This document shows positions 7,301-51,396 of a DNA stretch of 64,000 nt, one piece after another; the first letter of the stretch is position 1, and each line of letters opens with the position of its first letter. The DNA comes from Prorocentrum cordatum (Eukaryota; Sar; Dinophyceae; Prorocentrales; Prorocentraceae), in assembly GCA_963575745.1 (NCBI GenBank), contig CAUYUJ010006291.1, positions 99,501 to 163,500 on the forward strand. The letters run 5' to 3'. The notes beneath the pieces were generated by a model that worked only from the letters and a program-made list of their open reading frames with translations, had not been told where the DNA came from and did no database searches. The position numbers and the translations under genes were made by a program.

Positions 7301-8985
7301 GCCTGGGGATCCAACTGGAGGAAATCACGGCGCCTCCAGTGGTCCACACTGACAGCAGTGGTTTCAGAGAAAATACGGCTAGCAGCAAACACCCTCCTAG
7401 GCTCAATATCGGGGAGCTCAGGGGCCATCTCAAGGGCCCGCGCGCGAAGCTCATCCAACGCCTCCCCAGGCAACTCGATTTGGGATGGGCTGGCCGTCCA
7501 GAAACGGCCCCACTTCTTAGTGCGGTGTGCCATCATTTCCTCTGGCCACTGCAACGCGCACTCGGGCGCGACGAAATACGCTAGCGGGTCACCTTGGTCT
7601 CGCTTCAGCCACGCATGGGCCTTCTTAGCCCCGTGCGGCAAAGCCTTCAGGAGCCAGTCCTTGACAGCCTTAGCCGCGGAGCTCTTGGCCGCCTGCCAAG
7701 CTTTAGTGAGAGTGCAAGAGCACCGATCGATCAACTCCTGACATCGAGCGGGATCAATGCTCGTTAAGTCTTAAAGCTGAGCTCGCCACTCCGCAGCAGA
7801 CTGATCAGCAGGTAAGCGCGATGTATATCCATCAACACGCTGGCCAAGGGCATAGAGACGCCGAGCCAATCCCATACGCATATGATGGTACCCGTGCTGT
7901 ACTGCCACACGTAATTCATACAGCTTCTGGGAAACCGTGGACCAAAACATAAGAACTGGCTCCGAGAAACTGCCCGACGTGTTGCGATGATCAGTAAGTG
8001 TGGTGCGCCGCATGCTCATGTGTGTGCCACACCCAGTATAACATTCATACTCATGCTCATGCTCGATGTGCTCGTGCAACATACACATGTCTTCAGTAGC
8101 CCTGGACCATAGCTGATACGACGACGTCAGCTCACACGATAGGTGCTTGCAAACATGAGGGACGAGATGAGGGCACCGATGATGCTCCGAGCGCCACCGA
8201 GACAGAGCGGCGCCAAGATAATGAGTCCATGGCAAACGCGGGCCTTCAACATGAGGAAAACTGCGCGGTTTCACCCTCCTGCACAGCTGCTGCAGCAGAG
8301 CGGAGTGAGGCAAGCGAATGTCCAGAGCACAGTGCGTTTTGAAAGGGGACGCGTGATAATTGGTTACCTTCAGGAACGGCGCCAGAGTCTCACTGGCCAC
8401 AACATAATCAATCAGCGTACCCTTTCCCAGACTGCACGTATAGCTCACACCCACCGGTGGTAGGGCTCTGCTCTGGGTCATCTTCAGGAACCCGCAAAGC
8501 TCCATCAGCTCAATGTCAAAATTGAAATCCCCAACTCGGAGACACGGCATTCTGAGAGAATTCACAGAGTTACTGATGTGCCTCATCTTACGTATATTCT
8601 CCCCCGAGACCCCCAAGTCAGCGACCATAGACGACGCCTACAGCTATGGTACACCTGAGAGTTTTCAACTCCAGAAACATCCAACCGTTTCCAGCTCCTA
8701 CTTCACTGGTTGCACGATCATGCGCCAAGAAACGTTTAAATACAAACCTTTGCGCACAGCGGCCCCAACCCCCCCATGGGCCCCACCCCCAGGGGAAGGG
8801 GTGGCAGGGAGGAAATGGGGCCGCCAGTTCATGGCGGCCACATGCCGCTTAGCATCCTTCAGCTCAGAGGGGAGCTGGCGGTGTTCACAAAACAGGAAGG
8901 CGTCAGCCTTGCAATGTAAGCCAGCCAGAAAAGACTTAGCCAGCGCACTCCAACGGGTTATATGACAATACAGAAGCCTCACTTG
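4339..8985 (-). pseudogene. LINE ORF2: endonuclease, reverse transcriptase, RNase H (stop-interrupted)
   Basis: This is the replicase of the LINE. All recognisable parts share one - strand frame. The endonuclease begins near 8982 (VRLLYCHIT), has the catalytic Glu in FCEHRQLP (about 8880-8891), GDFN at 8521-8532, IDYVV and a final THCALDI. The Asn usually seen in the first motif (tyNv) is His here. RT follows with ALLPKS, VHWDLTKFFD, GVLPGC and YADD at 6706-6717. Counting from 6522: a knuckle CX2CX8HX4C at residues 282-299; RNase H with D370 (IDGSGG), E418 (PRAELL), D438 and D507; and two C-terminal Cys/His clusters (CNLCHCKF... and HCHETHSL...YCSTCG). Breaks: TAA at 7771-7773, TAG at 6523-6525, and a patch at 8629-8700 with four stops that is open in a neighbouring frame. 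It overlaps or abuts the ORF1 stop. Confidence 0.88.
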
Positions 8986-39265: not shown

Positions 39266-39499
39266 TTGCATGGAGGCTTGTGGTAGGCAGGGCCGGTGGC
39301 GTCCACATTTCTCATCGTACCTCCGATTGCTGCGTAAGGCGTAAGCCCTGCAGTTGCGGATTTGAGTGAGGCGCCGAATGAGGAGTCGGGGAGGGGCCGC
39401 GTAAGAACAGCGCAATATGTTGAGCTTCCCCAAAACTCTCAGTGAGGCCGCCTTCCGCCTTCCGGAGGGTTTCGGCTCAGAGGCAGAAGGACGCGTTTG
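39266..39499 (+). repeat. Split direct repeat A1 (left terminus)
   Basis: 234 bp beginning TTGCATGGAGGCTTGTGG and ending GGACGCGTTTG. Identical to A2 (41885-42118) except for one A/G change near the right end. Confidence 0.95.
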
Positions 39500-39538
39500 G
39501 CTCAAGGACTTTCGGCGGTAAGGCCGGAAGGACAAGCA

Positions 39539-41428
39539 ATGTCTGAGCTCGCGCCCGTCTTGTCGCCGAGACTGCAAGCATGTATGCCCACAGGGGTACC
39601 AGAAACGGGGGATCTAGAACGATATTTGGTGGCGAAGAACTTGTGTTCGATTCTCAGAGTGCATAGCTGGTTCGATTCACCCGACGACGCTGTCGCAGAG
39701 TTGGGCGGTGAAACCCGTTGTAGCCCGTCAGTGGCCAGGGAATTCTATGCACGGGTAGATCGGAATGCTTCGGCAGCCGTCAGGGGGCATGCTCGTGCGG
39801 AGTTGGCTGGAGGAGAACGAGTCCTTTGCGACCCCCAGGAAGCACTAGCGGTGCCCACGACCAGCTCTGGAAAGTTACCGTCGGTGGCCTTCTATCCGGG
39901 GAGGAAGAGGCACAAATCCGAAAAGGTGGAACAAAACTGCCAAGACCAGGAAGCTGCTGCGCTGTGCAGCCAGGTCGGTTTAGTGCTCGATCTCGCCGGC
40001 CACATCGGGGACGCATCGCCGAGACTCCGGGGATGGGCCCTCAAAGGCCTCAGCTGGGAGGATCAATCGGCTCTCTTGCGGCCTGTAGTGGTCAGGAGGG
40101 CTTCGGTGGCGGCGACGGTGCGATCCCACCTGCGAGTCCTTGCGCGGCTGCAGAAATGGGCAGAAGCGGCCGGGCTCCAGCCGTGGTCGTTAGATGCAAC
40201 AGATGTCGCGCTATTTCTCCGCGACGCCAGCGGTAGAGGGCCGTCAGTGCCGAAGGCGTCCTTTGCGTCGCTGGTGTGGGCGAAGGAAGTATTCCAGTTC
40301 CCGTGGCCGTTGGGGGACCCGCTGGTCGAGGCCCAGAGATGCATGTCAAGCAAGCAGACAGAGGAGCAGCGGCAGCAGGCGAGCCCGCTAACAAGGGCAA
40401 TCGTTGATTGCCTTCTGACCAGCTTCTTCGTGGCAGCTGAAGCGCACGACGCAGCAATTGTAATTGCTATTGGATTTGTGCTGGCCCTGACGTTTGGCTG
40501 CCTTCGTTGGGCTGACCTACAGAGATCCACGTCTTGCAATCTGTCGCGGGACGCACTGTACGCAGAATCGTGGAGGTCAAAGAAGAAAATCGGCCGAATC
40601 CCGTGGGCCGCCCCGCGGAGGGATTGGCAGGGGCGCGATTGGGGTGGACAGTTCCACGCCGCCGTGGCCGGCTACGTGGATCTTGCTGAAGCGGACTTTA
40701 TCGTCCCAGCGATGGCGGTGGAGTCTGGCAAGATATTCGTTCTGAGCCCAGTCCGCCCAGAGAAATATTCTGGCGCGTTGAATGTCATGAGGCGGGTGCT
40801 TCGCGCATTTGGCGGCGTGGCGAACACCGCCGAGTGGTCGTTGCACAGCCCCAGATTTTTCTTCCCGACGCTTGCCGGCCAGCTTCGCTTCCCCATGGAA
40901 GAACGCCGGACATTGGGCAGGTGGGGCCCGGGCTCGGGCATGCCCGTGCGCTACGATCGCGCGCGCTGTGTAACTGAATTGCTCCTCAAGTATGACATAG
41001 TGGGGCGTGTCCGAGATGGGTTCATGCCGGCGCGGGATTTTGAAGTCCCTGAGTCGCGCGCGCCCTCGGCGGCGGCTGCGGCGCCTGCGGTAAGGCAGAC
41101 GTCGCTAGTGAGCCGCGCCGTGCCTGATCAAAATATGGTGCTCAATAGGAGCAGCATGATGTTGCACCGCCAGTCCGAACAAGAGCCGCGCCGCACGCGC
41201 TGCTCTTTCTGGTGGGCGCAGTCGCGGGCGCCAGTAGAGGCGATTAGAGGCGCGCCTGGGGATTACGAAGACGGGTTCGTCAGATGCGAGCGCTGCTGGG
41301 GTAAAAACTCTGGCGGCGTCCCGCATTGGTCTCGGCCTGAATCCTCCGGCGAGGAGGAAGGAGCATCGCTTGTCCAGGATGCACGAGATTCCTCCGGGTC
41401 AAGCAGCTCCGCAGCCATCGAATCGTAG
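39539..41428 (+). CDS. Tyrosine recombinase (phage-integrase-fold) of the YR retroelement, 629 aa
   Basis: The ATG at 39539 follows the A1 repeat by 39 bases. The N-terminal about 150 residues are unassigned. A SAM-like core-binding helical region is likely around residues 170-270 (RSHLRVLARLQKWAEAAGLQ, a site-specific recombinase N-domain pattern). The catalytic domain has R323 (FGCLRWADL), H436-x2-R439 (SLHSPRFFF), W462 (LGRWGPGSG) and the nucleophile Y472 (PVRYDRA). That is the R...HxxR...H/W...Y set, complete. The C-terminal part (about residues 505-629) is Ala/Pro- and acidic-rich and includes SFWW and a CERCW pair. It should integrate the circular DNA copy. The frame is intact with no stop, so it may be functional. 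Confidence 0.9.
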   Translation: MSELAPVLSPRLQACMPTGVPETGDLERYLVAKNLCSILRVHSWFDSPDDAVAELGGETRCSPSVAREFYARVDRNASAAVRGHARAELAGGERVLCDPQEALAVPTTSSGKLPSVAFYPGRKRHKSEKVEQNCQDQEAAALCSQVGLVLDLAGHIGDASPRLRGWALKGLSWEDQSALLRPVVVRRASVAATVRSHLRVLARLQKWAEAAGLQPWSLDATDVALFLRDASGRGPSVPKASFASLVWAKEVFQFPWPLGDPLVEAQRCMSSKQTEEQRQQASPLTRAIVDCLLTSFFVAAEAHDAAIVIAIGFVLALTFGCLRWADLQRSTSCNLSRDALYAESWRSKKKIGRIPWAAPRRDWQGRDWGGQFHAAVAGYVDLAEADFIVPAMAVESGKIFVLSPVRPEKYSGALNVMRRVLRAFGGVANTAEWSLHSPRFFFPTLAGQLRFPMEERRTLGRWGPGSGMPVRYDRARCVTELLLKYDIVGRVRDGFMPARDFEVPESRAPSAAAAAPAVRQTSLVSRAVPDQNMVLNRSSMMLHRQSEQEPRRTRCSFWWAQSRAPVEAIRGAPGDYEDGFVRCERCWGKNSGGVPHWSRPESSGEEEGASLVQDARDSSGSSSSAAIES

Positions 41429-41516
41429 CGTCGCCCGGTAAGGGGCGCGCGTTGGGGCAGTGCGACGCGGTAATGCGGAGCCGAGAATGCCCAGCCCTGA
41501 AAGTGGGGGCGCGTTG

Positions 41517-41885
41517 GGAGTTAGGCCTGGGCAGATCACGAACGTGACTGTCGGGGCCCGACAAGTGACTGCCAACGAGAGCCCTGAGAGAAAAGAACAG
41601 GGCGACAGCGTGGACCCCTGACATGGGGCCGCCATAGTGCAAGCGCTGTTTGGGAATCGTGTGGACTCCAGACAGGGTCTGCGTGGCGTAGTGCAAACGC
41701 TGTTTGGGAGTCGGTGCAAGCGGCGCCGCCGCCGTCGCCGTCGTCGTCGTCGTCGTCGTCGTCTTCTGCCTGCCTCCTCTCCTCCCTCCTCCCTTGCCTT
41801 GTGCTGTCTCCCTCCTCCATCCTCAGTAGCCAGGTAGCAGGGGAAGTGGTAGCAGCAGAGCAGGGAATGTGCGGACGATGAGAAT
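41517..41885 (+). repeat. Split direct repeat B1 (internal)
   Basis: 369 bp from GGAGTTAGGCCTGGGCAG to GACGATGAGAAT, matching B2 (46246-46614) at all but two positions. It contains an inner duplication (GCAAGCGCTGTTTGGGAATCG and GCAAACGCTGTTTGGGAGTCG, about 50 bp apart) and a (CGT)n run near 41730-41762. Confidence 0.95.
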
Positions 41886-42118
41886 TGCATGGAGGCTTGT
41901 GGTAGGCAGGGCCGGTGGCGTCCACATTTCTCATCGTACCTCCGATTGCTGCGTAAGGCGTAAGCCCTGCAGTTGCGGATTTGAGTGAGGCGCCGAATGA
42001 GGAGTCGGGGAGGGGCCGCGTAAGAACAGCGCAATATGTTGAGCTTCCCCAAAACTCTCAGTGAGGCCGCCTTCCGCCTTCCGGAGGGTTTCGGCTCAGA
42101 GGCAAAAGGACGCGTTTG
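41885..42118 (+). repeat. Split direct repeat A2 (internal, abutting B1)
   Basis: 234-bp copy of A1. The B1A2 junction GAGAAT-TGCATGG is the template from which both termini of the element can be restored during replication, as proposed for PAT/Ngaro elements. Confidence 0.95.
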
Positions 42119-42727
42119 CCCACCCGACAGCGTCTCCCACCCTTTGCAACAAATAGTAGCAAAAGTAAACCTTGTGAGCATGTCTTGCGTAGAATATAAA
42201 GGGTGGTAGAGAGGTTGTTTTTGCCCCCCGGGGGCGCTCGAAACACGACCCTTGAAAAAGGGGGCCCGCGTATTCTCAGGACCAGCCGGCGCATCAAGCG
42301 AACCCGCTCCTGCGAGAGAAGCCGCCCGACGGCACAAAATGCACATTGTTGACGTTAGACGATAACTGCGCATCTGGGTCGTCGCCGTCTTAGTCGCTAA
42401 TTATGTATAATCAAGTGCCGTCTCAAAATTCCCCCTTGCCTTCCAACCCCGACCCCTTATGGAGGAAGAGGTGGAGGAGGATATCAAAGAAGAGAGACCG
42501 GCAGTGTCCCAGCCGTCGGATGTGGTGCCCCGGCGACTCGAAGGCCGCAAAATAGTGCCGGCGCGTATCTCTGTCTTCGCTCCTGTGCTGGACTTAATGA
42601 AGGTACTGGCGGCAACGGCTCTCGACCCCATCCTTTGCAAGACGGTGCCGGTGCACTGTCTGAGTTCTCGACCCCGTCCCAGGAGCTGAGGAGCCTTCCC
42701 ACCCCCTCATGCCCTCCCCCTCATACT

Positions 42728-42770
<43 letters not shown>

Positions 42771-43052
42771 ATATGCGATATCATTCTTCGCGCTCTGTGC
42801 AAGCTAGAGCGTAACAGTCTGTATACGTGTATAACATATGCCAGCTGTAAGGGTCCGGGAGCGACTACCGGCCACGCGGCCGGGACAGTTCGTATGGACC
42901 CATGCTCTTTCATCGTGTCAGAATTACGTTGTATGTTGCGGACTGTGCGCCAACCAAGCTATCCGGGGCCTTTGTGGCTCAAAGGCGCGGGCGGCGCCGC
43001 CCAAACACTACAGACTTACCAGGCGATAAGAACAAGCTTCTGTAAGCCAAGT
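42119..43052 (+). other. Leader between A2 and gag, with an (AT)n tract
   Basis: Holds a small frame (ATG 42459, 76 aa, acidic start MEEEVEEDIKEE) of unknown meaning and an (AT)n microsatellite at 42729-42762. An upstream in-frame ATG at about 42894 could extend gag, but the extra sequence does not look conserved in character. Confidence 0.5.
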
Positions 43053-44072
43053 ATGGCGTTGGAGCTGGATCCTCGTCTGGACAAGTTGCTTCGCAAGCAC
43101 GGTGTCGACGAGAAAGTGTTTGCGTACTTCAAGAGTACGCAGATGGTAACAATCTGCAAGTTCGCAGGCCTTGCGGACGCGAAGGCCGATGTGGGCGAGG
43201 GCATTTGTACCCCTGCGGGGTTAGATGCCTCTGACAGGCCGCTATGCCAGCCGGTAAAGGCTGCGTGGCAGGAGGCCGAAGCCCTGGTAATTGGTGAGCT
43301 GGAACTCATCAAGAAGGGTAAATTCGGCGACTGGGACGACCCAGTGGACCCAGAGGTGCGAGCCAAGAAGACCAACACTTTCGTGGAGTACTACCACATC
43401 CGCTTGCCAGCCCACCTCCTCGGAAACGATGCGTTGATGGGGCGCTTGGTGCGCGAGCACGAGCGCAGGGCCCCCACGGTGCACGACCTCCGGAAGGTGC
43501 GCCCTCTTGACAACGACGCCACGCAGTGCAAGCCCGAGGATAACAACATGTCGGCCCACACGTTCACCTACAAGCACCGCGTCCTCATGAACACGATGGC
43601 GTGGGCTGCTGCGCCCGAGTGGGCGGCGGCGGACTGGTCGGTATTGTTGGACTACCACGAGTGGGTCGTGCTCAAGATGTACGAGAAGAAGAACGGGCGT
43701 CTCCCCAGCGTGGAGGCCGTGCGGCGCGCAGACCAGCAGATGCGCGCGAAGTGGGTGGACGTCGTGCGCAACGACAACAAGACGCTCACGGAGGCCGTGA
43801 GGGAGTGCAGGACCGAGTGGGTCTCCCTCTTCGCAGAGCTCCACACCGACCGGGGCACGGCGGGGAGCCAAGGGGACGGGGCCCCTGCGCCCGCCAAGAA
43901 GGCCCGCGCGGCCCTCGAGACCGTCGCGGCCGACAGCTCGGGTAAGGAGTTCTGCAAGTTCTACAACGACGGCAAGTGCAACTACGGCAAGCGGTGCAAG
44001 TTCAAGCACGCCTGCAATGTCAAGGGCTGCGGGGGTGACCACCCGGCCTGCGACAAGGAGTTCCGCCCGTGA
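43053..44072 (+). CDS. Gag-like protein with CCCH and CCHC zinc fingers, 339 aa
   Basis: The ATG at 43053 gives MALELDPRLDKLLRKHGVDE. The first 60 residues resemble a small helical domain (AYFKSTQMVTICKFAGLADA). A helical middle with many Trp/Arg follows (WAAAPEWAAADWSVLLDYHEW). The C-terminus holds CX7CX5CX3H starting at C301 (CKFYNDGKCNYGKRCKFKH) and then CX4CX3HX2C (CNVKGCGGDHPAC). A CCCH finger followed by CGG-H-C is a pattern I associate with dinoflagellate YR-element Gag proteins (from memory, unchecked). It should package the element RNA. RT follows after 150 bases. The frame is intact. Confidence 0.8.
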   Translation: MALELDPRLDKLLRKHGVDEKVFAYFKSTQMVTICKFAGLADAKADVGEGICTPAGLDASDRPLCQPVKAAWQEAEALVIGELELIKKGKFGDWDDPVDPEVRAKKTNTFVEYYHIRLPAHLLGNDALMGRLVREHERRAPTVHDLRKVRPLDNDATQCKPEDNNMSAHTFTYKHRVLMNTMAWAAAPEWAAADWSVLLDYHEWVVLKMYEKKNGRLPSVEAVRRADQQMRAKWVDVVRNDNKTLTEAVRECRTEWVSLFAELHTDRGTAGSQGDGAPAPAKKARAALETVAADSSGKEFCKFYNDGKCNYGKRCKFKHACNVKGCGGDHPACDKEFRP

Positions 44073-44077
44073 TCCCC

Positions 44078-44108
44078 CGGTAAGGGGGGGTGCTCGCCTT
44101 CGGTAAGG
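44078..44108 (+). promoter_or_regulatory. Twin CGGTAAGG motifs between gag and RT
   Basis: CGGTAAGG occurs at 44078-44085 and 44101-44108 in the spacer between gag and RT. It also occurs at 39516-39523 (just before the YR ATG) and 41436-41443 (just after the YR stop). The location at every ORF boundary of the element suggests a processing, splice-donor-like (GTAAG) or translation signal; this is inference. Confidence 0.35.
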
Positions 44109-44222
44109 AGGGGCAGGCGATGCTCGAGTGAAGATGTTTCTGCGCCGCGCGCAAAGCGTCTGAGAGGGCAGTCGCCGCTGAGCCGCGGGGTGGGCTTCGG
44201 TGGCTCTCGCGACGCGCCGGTA

Positions 44223-46253
44223 ATGGCGCGCGCGGACCGCGCAATTGCAAGCGGCTTGCAGCCGCGGAGCGCCGGTGCGGCGCCTCTGGTGCCGGAAGGC
44301 GTTGGGCCTCGGGGGTTCCTGGAACACGTGACAACCCTGGAACGCCCGATGTGCGGCCCTCCCACCTTGCACGCTTCGGTAGAGGAAGCGTACCGGAGGC
44401 AGGCTGCCGATCCGGAGGTGGTGAAACGAACCAGGTTGCAAGCTTGTGCGCTCATCTCTGAATGGGCAAACGAATTGGAACCCGAGAGGGAGGCGTGGGC
44501 TGCCGCCTTGCATCCCGACGTGCGCCGGGTAATCGGCCACCTGCACGGGCCCCTCTTGAAAAAACTGGTCAGCGAGTCGGGGCACCTGGACAAGGCGTAC
44601 TTCGACTCCTTGTGCTCGGGGCGGCCGGCCTTGGGCGCAATCCAGCCTGCTGGCCTCTGGAGAGCGGCTGAGTCTGCGGCGTCAGTCGACCTGCAGGACT
44701 GGATCAAGGAGGCGCCAGAGAGGAACCGACGCATCGTCGCTGGCGTCAGGGGCTCGGGCGACGCCGCCTTGAACCAAGCAGCGTGGTCAAAGCGCGAGAA
44801 AGAGATTGCCACTGGCGCCGTTGAGGGGCCATTCTCTGTCTCGGACGTGGACCTCGCTGATGTGGCGGTGCACCCCAGTTTCCCGGTGTGGGAGCGCGGG
44901 CCCACCGGCTCCTGGAAGGCACGCAATATCGAGAACCTCAAATCCAGTGGCGCGAATGCAACCGTTCACACGACGGAAGCGTGCACGCCGGACGATTTGG
45001 ACACGGCGCGAGCCGCTGTGCGCTTCTCGAAAGAACTCTGGGGCGCTGGAGACCCCCTCGCGGGGTTTACAGCCGACTACAGCGGTGCTTTCCGCCAGAG
45101 TCCGCTGGCCCCGGAGCAGGTCCAGTGGATGTGGTCGGTGACGTGGCACCCTGGGCGGCGCGAGCCAGTCCTCCTGCGCAACTTGGGACAAGTATTCGGG
45201 GGCGCTGGGTCGCAGTTCAACTACGTCAGGGACCCGGCGGCGATGTGCGCCATAGCGAGGCATTTCTTTGCCATCCCAATGCGCCACTACAGCGACGACG
45301 CCTGGTGCGTGGAGCGCGCCTGCACAGCTTGCTGCGCGTGGTTCTGTTGGGCATGGCTTCACAGACAGGTTGGGTGGAGGCTCGATCTTCAGAAGTCGCC
45401 TCTGCCAGCTGGCGTGTGGAAGCTGCTCGGGGCGGAGCTCTCAGTGGACGTCCCCCGGCCCGTCGCTCGGTTGCCGGAACAGAAAGCAGCAGCTTTGATC
45501 GGTGACATCGACTACTACCTGCAGAGCTGCCGGTTGCCTGCTGCAGAGGCGGGCTCCCTCAGAGGCCGCTTGGGCTGGGCACGTTCGTTTCTCTGCGGCC
45601 GCTACGGCTCCGCAGCGCTGGTCCCACTGAGGCGTCGGCAGTTCGATGGCAGCGGGCGGATGGGCATGCCGGCGTCCCTCAGTGCCTCGCTGCGCTGGTT
45701 CCGGCACGCTCTGCACGAGCAGTCAGGCCGCGAAGTCCCTTTCGATCTTCAATCGTGGCCGCTCGTTGTCACGGTGAGCGACGGTGAAGGCACGGGGCGA
45801 GTGGCAGCGGGCATATGGAAGCCGCGTGACCCAGACTTCCGGCCAATGCTCACCGCCACTGCGGTGCCAGAGCCCTGGATGGAGCGGTGGCTAGGGCACG
45901 ATCGTGTGAACGCCATTCAGGAGATCGAAGCGGTGGGCCCTCTGCTGGCGTTGGCAACGTGGCCGACGTTGTTGCGCAGATGTGTGTGGATTCATTTCAT
46001 CGACAACGAATCCGCCAAGTACTCATTGATCAAGGGTTCGTCTAGAGCTGTCCACACGAACGAAATCGTGCACGCGACCTGGGAGGAATGCCGTTCCAGG
46101 TGCATTTACCCGTGGCGGGAACGGGTGGCCTCAGCAGACAATCCCGTCGACAAAGCATCGCGCGGAGATCTGGCCGACCTCTACGAGCAGCAGTGGGTCG
46201 TCGTGGACCCTGTGCTGCCGGACATCTGGAGGCGGGACGCAGGCCGGAGTTAG
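44223..46253 (+). CDS. Reverse transcriptase-RNase H of the YR retroelement, 676 aa
   Basis: The ATG at 44223 (MARADRAIASGLQ) is the first in frame; a GTG lies at 44190. RT motifs: DPLAGFTADYSGAFRQSPL (catalytic Asp), GQVFGGAGSQFNYVR, and RHYSDDAW with Y356-S-D-D, the DIRS-type variant of the YxDD box; then GWRLDLQKSPLPA. RNase H: D520 (VTVSDGEGTG), E569 (QEIEAVGPL), D594 (FIDNESAKYS) and a last Asp in SADNPVDKASRG. The stop lies inside B2. The order RT-RH without integrase or protease fits DIRS/Ngaro elements, where a YR replaces the DDE integrase. The frame is fully open. Confidence 0.92.
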   Translation: MARADRAIASGLQPRSAGAAPLVPEGVGPRGFLEHVTTLERPMCGPPTLHASVEEAYRRQAADPEVVKRTRLQACALISEWANELEPEREAWAAALHPDVRRVIGHLHGPLLKKLVSESGHLDKAYFDSLCSGRPALGAIQPAGLWRAAESAASVDLQDWIKEAPERNRRIVAGVRGSGDAALNQAAWSKREKEIATGAVEGPFSVSDVDLADVAVHPSFPVWERGPTGSWKARNIENLKSSGANATVHTTEACTPDDLDTARAAVRFSKELWGAGDPLAGFTADYSGAFRQSPLAPEQVQWMWSVTWHPGRREPVLLRNLGQVFGGAGSQFNYVRDPAAMCAIARHFFAIPMRHYSDDAWCVERACTACCAWFCWAWLHRQVGWRLDLQKSPLPAGVWKLLGAELSVDVPRPVARLPEQKAAALIGDIDYYLQSCRLPAAEAGSLRGRLGWARSFLCGRYGSAALVPLRRRQFDGSGRMGMPASLSASLRWFRHALHEQSGREVPFDLQSWPLVVTVSDGEGTGRVAAGIWKPRDPDFRPMLTATAVPEPWMERWLGHDRVNAIQEIEAVGPLLALATWPTLLRRCVWIHFIDNESAKYSLIKGSSRAVHTNEIVHATWEECRSRCIYPWRERVASADNPVDKASRGDLADLYEQQWVVVDPVLPDIWRRDAGRS

Positions 46254-46614
46254 GCCTGGGCAGATCACGAACGTGACTGTCGGGGCCCGACAAGTGACTG
46301 CCAACGAGAGCCCTGAGAGAAAAGAACAGGGCGACAGCGTGGACCCCTGACAGGGGGCCGCCATAGTGCAAGCGCTGTTTGGGAATCGTGTGGACTCCAG
46401 ACAGGGTCTGCGTGGCGTAGTGCAAACGCTGTTTGGGAGTCGGTGCAAGCGGCGCCGCCGCCGTCGCCGTCGTCGTCGTCGTCGTCGTCGTCTTCTGCCT
46501 GCCTCCTCTCCTCCCTCCTCCCTTGCCTTGTGCTGTCTCCCTCCTCCATCCTCAGTAGCCAGGTAGCAGGGGAAGTGGTAGCAGCAGAGCAGGGAGTGTG
46601 CGGACGATGAGAAT
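46246..46614 (+). repeat. Split direct repeat B2 (right terminus)
   Basis: 369 bp, two differences from B1. The RT ORF stop (TAG at 46251-46253) lies in its first ten bases. The element ends at GAGAAT; the flank GATTTGTTCG follows. Confidence 0.95.
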
Positions 46615-51374: not shown

Positions 51375-51396
51375 TCCGTAGCCATTTTGGCTCAAG
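51375..51396 (+). other. Complete 22-nt DinoSL sequence
   Basis: T at 51375, then CCGTAGCCATTTTGGCTCAA, then G: an exact match to the dinoflagellate spliced leader (first base degenerate D). The next bases are CAGTTC, not a GT donor, so it is not an SL RNA gene but the 5' mark of a reverse-transcribed, trans-spliced mRNA. It identifies the host lineage. Confidence 0.95.

Follow-up and report, generated by a model that had tools for sequence, protein, structure and literature searches.

A 64,000-nucleotide stretch of the dinoflagellate Prorocentrum cordatum genome (GenBank assembly GCA_963575745.1, contig CAUYUJ010006291.1, positions 99,501 to 163,500; hereafter the window, within which all positions below are numbered) contains a tyrosine recombinase (YR) retroelement of the PAT type, with split direct repeats and the YR gene placed first. 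The separation of the genes by the internal repeats is itself ordinary; the order of the genes is not. Local alignment and a map of the open reading frames (ORFs) gave the order A1 - YR - B1A2 - gag - RT/RH - B2 between positions 39266 and 46614, in which A and B are the split repeats, RT is reverse transcriptase and RH is RNase H. In our view this is probably a recently inserted and apparently intact dinoflagellate YR retrotransposon with PAT-type split direct repeats in a YR-first arrangement, which would replicate by the mechanism proposed below.

Architecture of the element

The repeats and the three open frames lie where a reading of the sequence alone (the sequence-only reading) had placed them. 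Its description of a YR retroelement with split direct repeats, in which the BA junction divides YR from gag-RT, was borne out, and local alignment showed each half to start with an A repeat and end with a B repeat. The A and B pairs together carry 3 differences in 603 bp (1/234 and 2/369), and repeats of this length with an identity above 99% are far above chance. B1 abuts A2, the two sharing one base (T). A separate repeat scan recovered the same A and B pairs, one of them as a 300-nt mismatch-tolerant core. By flank comparison alone there is no target-site duplication, the flanks having one T in common. Searches of the 64-kb window with blastn and tblastn revealed no further copies of A, B or the three proteins: outside the element, blastn matched only the CGT-rich simple repeat of B, and the best tblastn matches elsewhere in the window were at E = 0.005 for gag and E = 0.42 for RT. 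Viral and prokaryote contigs, in which copies from a eukaryote are not expected, contained 0 relatives.

The locus could instead be a unique composite: a whole or partial circle would have inserted into or beside a sister copy, and subsequent loss would have left YR and gag-RT in separate halves. A single copy was seen, each of its halves begins with A and ends with B, and integration of a circle at the BA site of a resident copy would make exact B/A joints, all of which fit such an origin. However, the two repeat pairs are of similar, young age and B1 joins A2 exactly, as after a single replication event (although a recent composite could look alike in both respects). In addition, all frames are open, and the same gene split is regular in PAT1 and Kangaroo, as these are described in the text discussed below. 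We regard a composite as quite unlikely. Solitary halves, suggested as a means of telling a subfamily from a composite, were rejected as non-discriminating: recombination between A1 and A2 would leave A-gag-RT-B and that between B1 and B2 would leave A-YR-B, so that halves are expected from any such layout, like solo long terminal repeats.

An inverted repeat with 13-nt arms (92% complementary, 37 nt between them) spans the B/A junction and was one of two found in 41500-42200. Its 10-bp perfect core was matched by 2 of 500 mononucleotide shuffles of 41836-41945. We treat it as a candidate recombinase binding site only.

The three proteins

Alignment of the first protein with all 5 matches of its protein search showed residues R323, K348, K350, H436, R439, W462 and Y472 to be invariant in 6/6 sequences. 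These residues follow the R-K-HxxR-H/W-Y catalytic motif of tyrosine recombinases, at a spacing close to that of Cre. Judged by these invariant catalytic residues, the protein is a tyrosine recombinase, with a weak match to a Cre-like fold. Pfam returned a weak SAM-like N-terminal domain (E 0.0077) and no match to the phage-integrase catalytic domain. A Foldseek search with the YR structure model, which is of low confidence (mean predicted local distance difference test score, pLDDT, 57.1), gave 109 matches at E up to 10 and 0 at E up to 0.001; among the 50 listed, ranks 1-27 were Cre or its derivative Tre. These Foldseek E-values, all >0.04, and the low confidence of both structure models (YR and RT) count against the assignment. 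A PDB sequence search with the YR alignment yielded no meaningful relatives. The protein also has a cysteine-bearing C-terminal tail (C-x-FW ... CxxC, encoded at 41190-41310), which is common to 5 of the 6 aligned sequences, the sixth ending earlier.

The middle protein is read as Gag from its position and its single CCCH zinc finger (PF00642, E 8.2e-4), whose 19.7 bits fall slightly below the Pfam cut-off of 20.5. The searches for protein relatives used YR and RT, rather than gag, as queries, and scored the 7991-7996 candidates having most words in common with the query. The gag and pol genes lie in one frame with a single TGA (44070-44072) between them, and both read-through of this stop and restart at the ATG at 44223 are possible routes to pol expression.

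The RT of the window itself matched 0 Pfam families at E up to 1. It is identified as RT/RH because it shows a profile-profile match (100% probability, E 2.9e-42, 617 columns) to a group of four proteins that includes the Symbiodinium protein P0015, which carries Pfam RVT_1 (E 2.7e-8). P0015 has 24% identity to the window RT and is a distant relative, not shown to be a SymbioDIRS protein. The DD pair of the RT was nearly invariant in the wider alignment, which comprised 11 of 13 relatives (P0009 and P0018 were left out); the other RT alignment held 4 of the 13. PDB sequence searches with the RT and with the wider RT alignment found no meaningful relatives, the antibody matches in the RT search being taken as chance. 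The predicted RT structure (mean pLDDT 39.8) was of insufficient quality and was set aside. Pfam detected no methyltransferase (MT) in the three ORFs, although a divergent one could be missed, since Pfam also missed the RT.

Comparison with described YR retroelements

The element has the features of YR retrotransposons (order DIRS), namely RT with RNase H, a tyrosine recombinase and no target-site duplication. Comparison with the PAT, Ngaro and DIRS groups was made by published descriptions and layout rather than by protein trees. The sequence-only reading had assumed that gag, RT and YR share one interval in PAT and Ngaro layouts. In the accessible text of PMC4157794, this is correct for Ngaro and VIPER, whose internal repeats lie downstream of YR, but not for the nematode form of PAT1 or for Kangaroo, whose internal repeats lie between MT and YR, which makes A1-gag-RT-B1A2-YR-B2 the known order. 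Separation of YR from pol was rejected as a novelty in itself, being already present in these two. The same text says of the echinoderm Pat1 form merely that its internal repeats are placed differently, and mentions Pat1-like elements of Caenorhabditis briggsae without MT. What is unusual is the position of YR upstream of gag-RT, a circular permutation of the PAT1/Kangaroo layout. This YR-first order is not described in the accessible texts of PMC4157794 or PMC5890265, figures apart.

As in the published outlines of nematode-form PAT1 and Kangaroo, the split direct repeats follow the scheme A1..B1A2..B2 and the internal pair divides the pol part from YR. In those elements, however, pol precedes YR, which stands last (and in inverted orientation in Kangaroo), and a methyltransferase is typical, whereas here YR is first and in sense orientation and no methyltransferase was found. 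Toc3 of green algae is likewise a PAT element with a non-inverted YR; it is said to lack a Gag zinc finger, whereas the Gag found here has a CCCH finger. Ngaro and VIPER resemble the element in having split repeats, RT-RH and YR without a methyltransferase (subject here to the same Pfam caveat) but, as described, follow the scheme A1-[ORFs]-B1A2B2 with all genes between A1 and B1, from which the element differs. SymbioDIRS of Symbiodinium share with it a dinoflagellate host, a divergent RT and a separate YR ORF. The excerpted text of PMC5890265 gives two DIRS structures for Symbiodinium, with the YR/Pol order shuffled and repeats arranged as A-coding-B-A-B; neither these repeats nor the Dnmt3 domain reported in pol of the DNMT-bearing families is present here.

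The element may be an ordinary new member of this described dinoflagellate group (SymbioDIRS and DNMT-less relatives), the published repeat position being oversimplified. Such membership is compatible with the explanation that we favour. The distant relationship of its RT/RH to a Symbiodinium protein is in keeping with it, as are reports, in those parts of the Symbiodinium literature that were available, of DIRS RTs that align poorly with Pfam, as the window RT does, of DIRS elements lacking DNMT and of the shuffled gene orders. On the other side stand the identity to P0015 of just 24%, the failure of Pfam to find a DNA methyltransferase and the A-coding-B-A-B repeats. We consider membership possible but doubtful.

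A spliced-leader relic at the edge of A1

A 21-nt spliced leader is specific to dinoflagellates, in agreement with passages of PMC12014239. The A repeat ends at TTTG, and the next bases complete TTTGGCTCAAG, the last 11 bases of this leader, at A1 but not at A2. This 11-mer occurs three times in the window, against 0.075 expected (both strands, mean of 40 shuffles), and two of these occurrences are within complete or near-complete leaders; the 11-nt leader suffix was held by 0 of 2000 shuffles of 39480-39541. The leader is exact at 51376-51396 (+), which marks the window as dinoflagellate DNA, and matches at 20/21 at 10349-10329 (-). Neither copy is followed by a GT splice donor, and both are probably 5' ends of retroposed mRNAs. 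Leader relics mark reverse-transcribed, trans-spliced mRNAs, according to the consulted excerpts of PMC12014239.

That A1 ends within the relic, at a match of four bases, suggests that copying of a leader-capped RNA into cDNA jumped from the leader to the A2 end. Trans-spliced RNA was thus probably reverse-transcribed in the lineage of the element, with A1 restored from A2 at the TTTG match. No paper in the collection searched combines dinoflagellate, spliced leader and tyrosine recombinase. Another leader-like stretch, upstream of gag (42963), is weak and also lies within a 7-bp hairpin, and each A repeat carries TTTCGGCTCAGAG near its end.

Several results tell against a leader origin of these matches. 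Over the whole leader, the relic scores only 12/21, which is not significant (P = 0.079), although a low whole-leader score would be expected of a truncated relic. The exact 3' suffix of the gag-side match is only 5 nt (P = 0.50), and an equally good 16/21 match lies outside the element (16834, - strand). The window contains 9 leader-core matches with up to 2 edits, 4 of them in the element, and 10 mononucleotide shuffles gave 4-9. The weaker leader matches may be chance.

Another conceivable origin is a single capture of the YR half from a YR mRNA that had been retroposed with its leader; the relic would then be a fossil with no role in each cycle. Leader relics are common at the 5' ends of dinoflagellate retrogenes, as stated in the available passages of PMC12014239 and PMC11453091, and this fits a single capture. 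However, the A repeat stops within the relic, at the 4-base match, and rebuilding of A1 in every cycle would be expected to have its fixed point at this same position. For the relic, we give a single capture close to an even chance, if slightly below it.

Hairpins with a GGTAA loop

On its sense strand the element has 14 GGTAA words, against 3.1 expected and a maximum of 8 in 500 dinucleotide shuffles; its other strand has 3. Eight of the 14 start the loop of a perfect hairpin with a 4-6 bp stem, compared to a mean of 0.034 and a maximum of 1 in the same number of dinucleotide shuffles; outside the element, 0 of 33 GGTAA words have a stem of 4 or more. These counts cover all 14 sense-strand words (39510-44540) and leave uncounted a related hairpin with the loop GGTAGAG. 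When all 5-letter words at loop starts on the sense strand of the element were compared, only GGTAA stood out besides TATAT/ATATA (P 2.3e-10 before correction; next word 0.0016).

The hairpin stems are unrelated in sequence and co-vary. Across the inner four pairs of all 14 sites, taken without selection, 75% of cells are paired and the covariation score is 0.687, compared to 45.7% and 0.233 in shuffles (0 of 500 reached either value); slid registers gave at most 50% paired cells and a score of at most 0.299. The number of cells changed on both sides was reached by 1 of 500 shuffles and that of further pair types by 13 of 500. A six-pair analysis agrees with this picture. In minimum-energy folds of two stretches, the hairpins at sites 44079, 44102, 44219 and 41437 form. 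Rfam gave 0 matches over the whole window at gathering scores. A covariance model of the hairpin is short, its best match reaching E 0.07; at E up to 10 it made 17 matches, 14 in the element, including the ten best, and 3 outside. As the model was built from the same 14 sites, this shows merely that little else matches.

A fixed loop on free stems, confined to one strand, is the pattern that a loop-reading RNA-binding protein would select. The hairpins resemble RNA recognition sites dispersed over the element, with the CCCH-finger Gag as a possible reader. Dispersed packaging signals are known from RNA viruses, as outlined in the portion of PMC6281560 available to us.

The following points weaken this interpretation. 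Pairs with any change on both sides are not above shuffles (307/500; 293/500 with six pairs). Loop words outside the element also reach low uncorrected P values (GCGGA, 4.8e-6; CTCCG on the other strand of the right flank, 6.7e-7), so loop-word enrichment can have other causes. Site 41469 does not form its own hairpin in the minimum-energy fold. The folding energy near the hairpins is ordinary (z -1.16 and -0.36); the signal thus lies in loop identity and covariation, not in stability. Gag is no more than a candidate reader of the hairpins.

The hairpins might alternatively be sites for a host factor or serve translation control at ORF edges, with no part for Gag. GGUAAG is the core of a 5' splice site, which the loops resemble, 6 of the 14 GGTAA sites fall within 278 bp of ORF spacer, and the first pol ATG lies inside one hairpin. 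Set against this, 5 of the 14 are inside gag, 2 of them belonging to the 8 perfect hairpins, and the loops include GGTAAT, GGTAAA and GGTAAC, forms that would not be expected of a splice site. We take this alternative for the hairpins seriously, while holding it to be somewhat less than evenly likely. The 934-bp spacer between A2 and gag (42119-43052) contains no GGTAA word. It has an (AT)n run and a lower GC content, and may be an outron or a later insertion.

Table 1 Features of the element, in window coordinates.
Feature	Position	Strand	Details	Basis
A1, left split repeat and left end of the element	39266..39499	+	234 bp, 233 identical to A2	
Spliced-leader relic TTTGGCTCAAG	39496..39506	+	first 4 bases are the last 4 of A1	11-mer count and shuffles
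GGTAAG hairpin, YR 5' leader	39510..39529	+		hairpin scan
Tyrosine recombinase ORF	39539..41428	+	629 amino acids; ATG 39539, stop 41428	open frame, R-K-HxxR-W-Y residues
GGTAAG hairpin, 3' part of YR ORF	41082..41101	+		hairpin scan
GGTAAG hairpin just past YR stop	41430..41449	+	site 41437	hairpin scan, fold
B1, internal split repeat	41517..41885	+	369 bp, 367 identical to B2	
Inverted repeat across B/A junction, candidate recombinase site	41875..41937	.	arms 41875-41887 and 41925-41937	inverted-repeat search
A2, internal split repeat	41885..42118	+	1 mismatch to A1 over 234 bp	local alignment
Weak spliced-leader-like stretch upstream of gag	42963..42983	+	16/21	P = 0.002 in 2000 shuffles of 42119-43055
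gag-like ORF	43053..44072	+	339 amino acids; ATG 43053, TGA end; one CCCH zinc finger near C end	ORF map, Pfam
GGTAACA hairpin in gag	43138..43157	+	6-bp stem	hairpin scan
GGTAAA hairpin in gag	43246..43265	+		hairpin scan
Two GGTAAG hairpins just past gag stop	44072..44114	+	sites 44079 and 44102; second relies on a G-U pair and is left out of the 8 perfect ones	
GGTAAT hairpin containing first pol ATG	44212..44231	+	site 44219; ATG 44223	hairpin scan, fold
pol ORF, reverse transcriptase (HYSDD) and RNase H	44223..46253	+	frame 44073-46253, first in-frame ATG 44223	ORF map, profile match
Related hairpin, loop GGTAGAG	44371..44391	+	site 44378, 7-bp stem	found afterwards
GGTAAT hairpin in pol	44521..44540	+		hairpin scan
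B2, right split repeat and right end of the element	46246..46614	+	2 mismatches to B1; first 8 bases include pol stop	

A proposed replication cycle

In the mechanism that we propose, the element would be transcribed from A1 to B2. B1A2 would then splint the two cDNA ends and supply the parts missing from the RNA; the product would be a circle with two near-identical BA junctions, and YR would insert this circle at one of them, the observed order being one of two possible permutations. Closing B2 onto A1 creates a second BA junction in the circle, and the gene order would depend on which of the two is used for insertion. Either order has A at its start and B at its end and could therefore be transcribed. 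B1A2 may at the same time be an intercistronic unit, with B1 supplying a 3' end and A2 a new 5' region; its position between the genes would allow YR and gag-pol to be expressed from separate spliced-leader mRNAs. The RNA would lose A1 through trans-splicing, and A1 could be regained if copying passed from the leader (TTTTG) to the TTTG that ends A2. If A1 is rebuilt so in every round, the observed joint is what each round would reproduce. The sense-strand GGUAAN hairpins would be RNA recognition sites, most likely for Gag.

A fuller version would have the CCCH-finger Gag read the GGUAAN hairpins both for assembly and to hold back pol translation, by analogy with RNA phage operators and dispersed packaging signals. 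The split repeats would cope with trans-splicing through A1 rebuilding at the leader/A microhomology, and YR-first would be one of two isomers. Taken as a whole, this combination is rather unlikely. The proposed cycle is also weakened by its dependence on a single copy, with no second full-length copy, isomer or transcript seen. In addition, no passage in the accessible texts reports both orders in one family, so that the permutation may be rare or poorly viable.

Implications

It is the leader relic at the edge of A1 and the GGTAA hairpins that deserve further study. End restoration in split-repeat YR retroelements has so far rested on models, and an A1 edge within a relic of the host leader is a trace, at the sequence level, of a possible copying switch, which makes the model testable in a trans-splicing host. 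A set of retrotransposon hairpins that share a loop while their stems co-vary would take the idea of dispersed assembly signals beyond RNA viruses, into retroelements. The two-isomer reading, if true, would explain the shuffled-looking gene orders in split-repeat YR elements.

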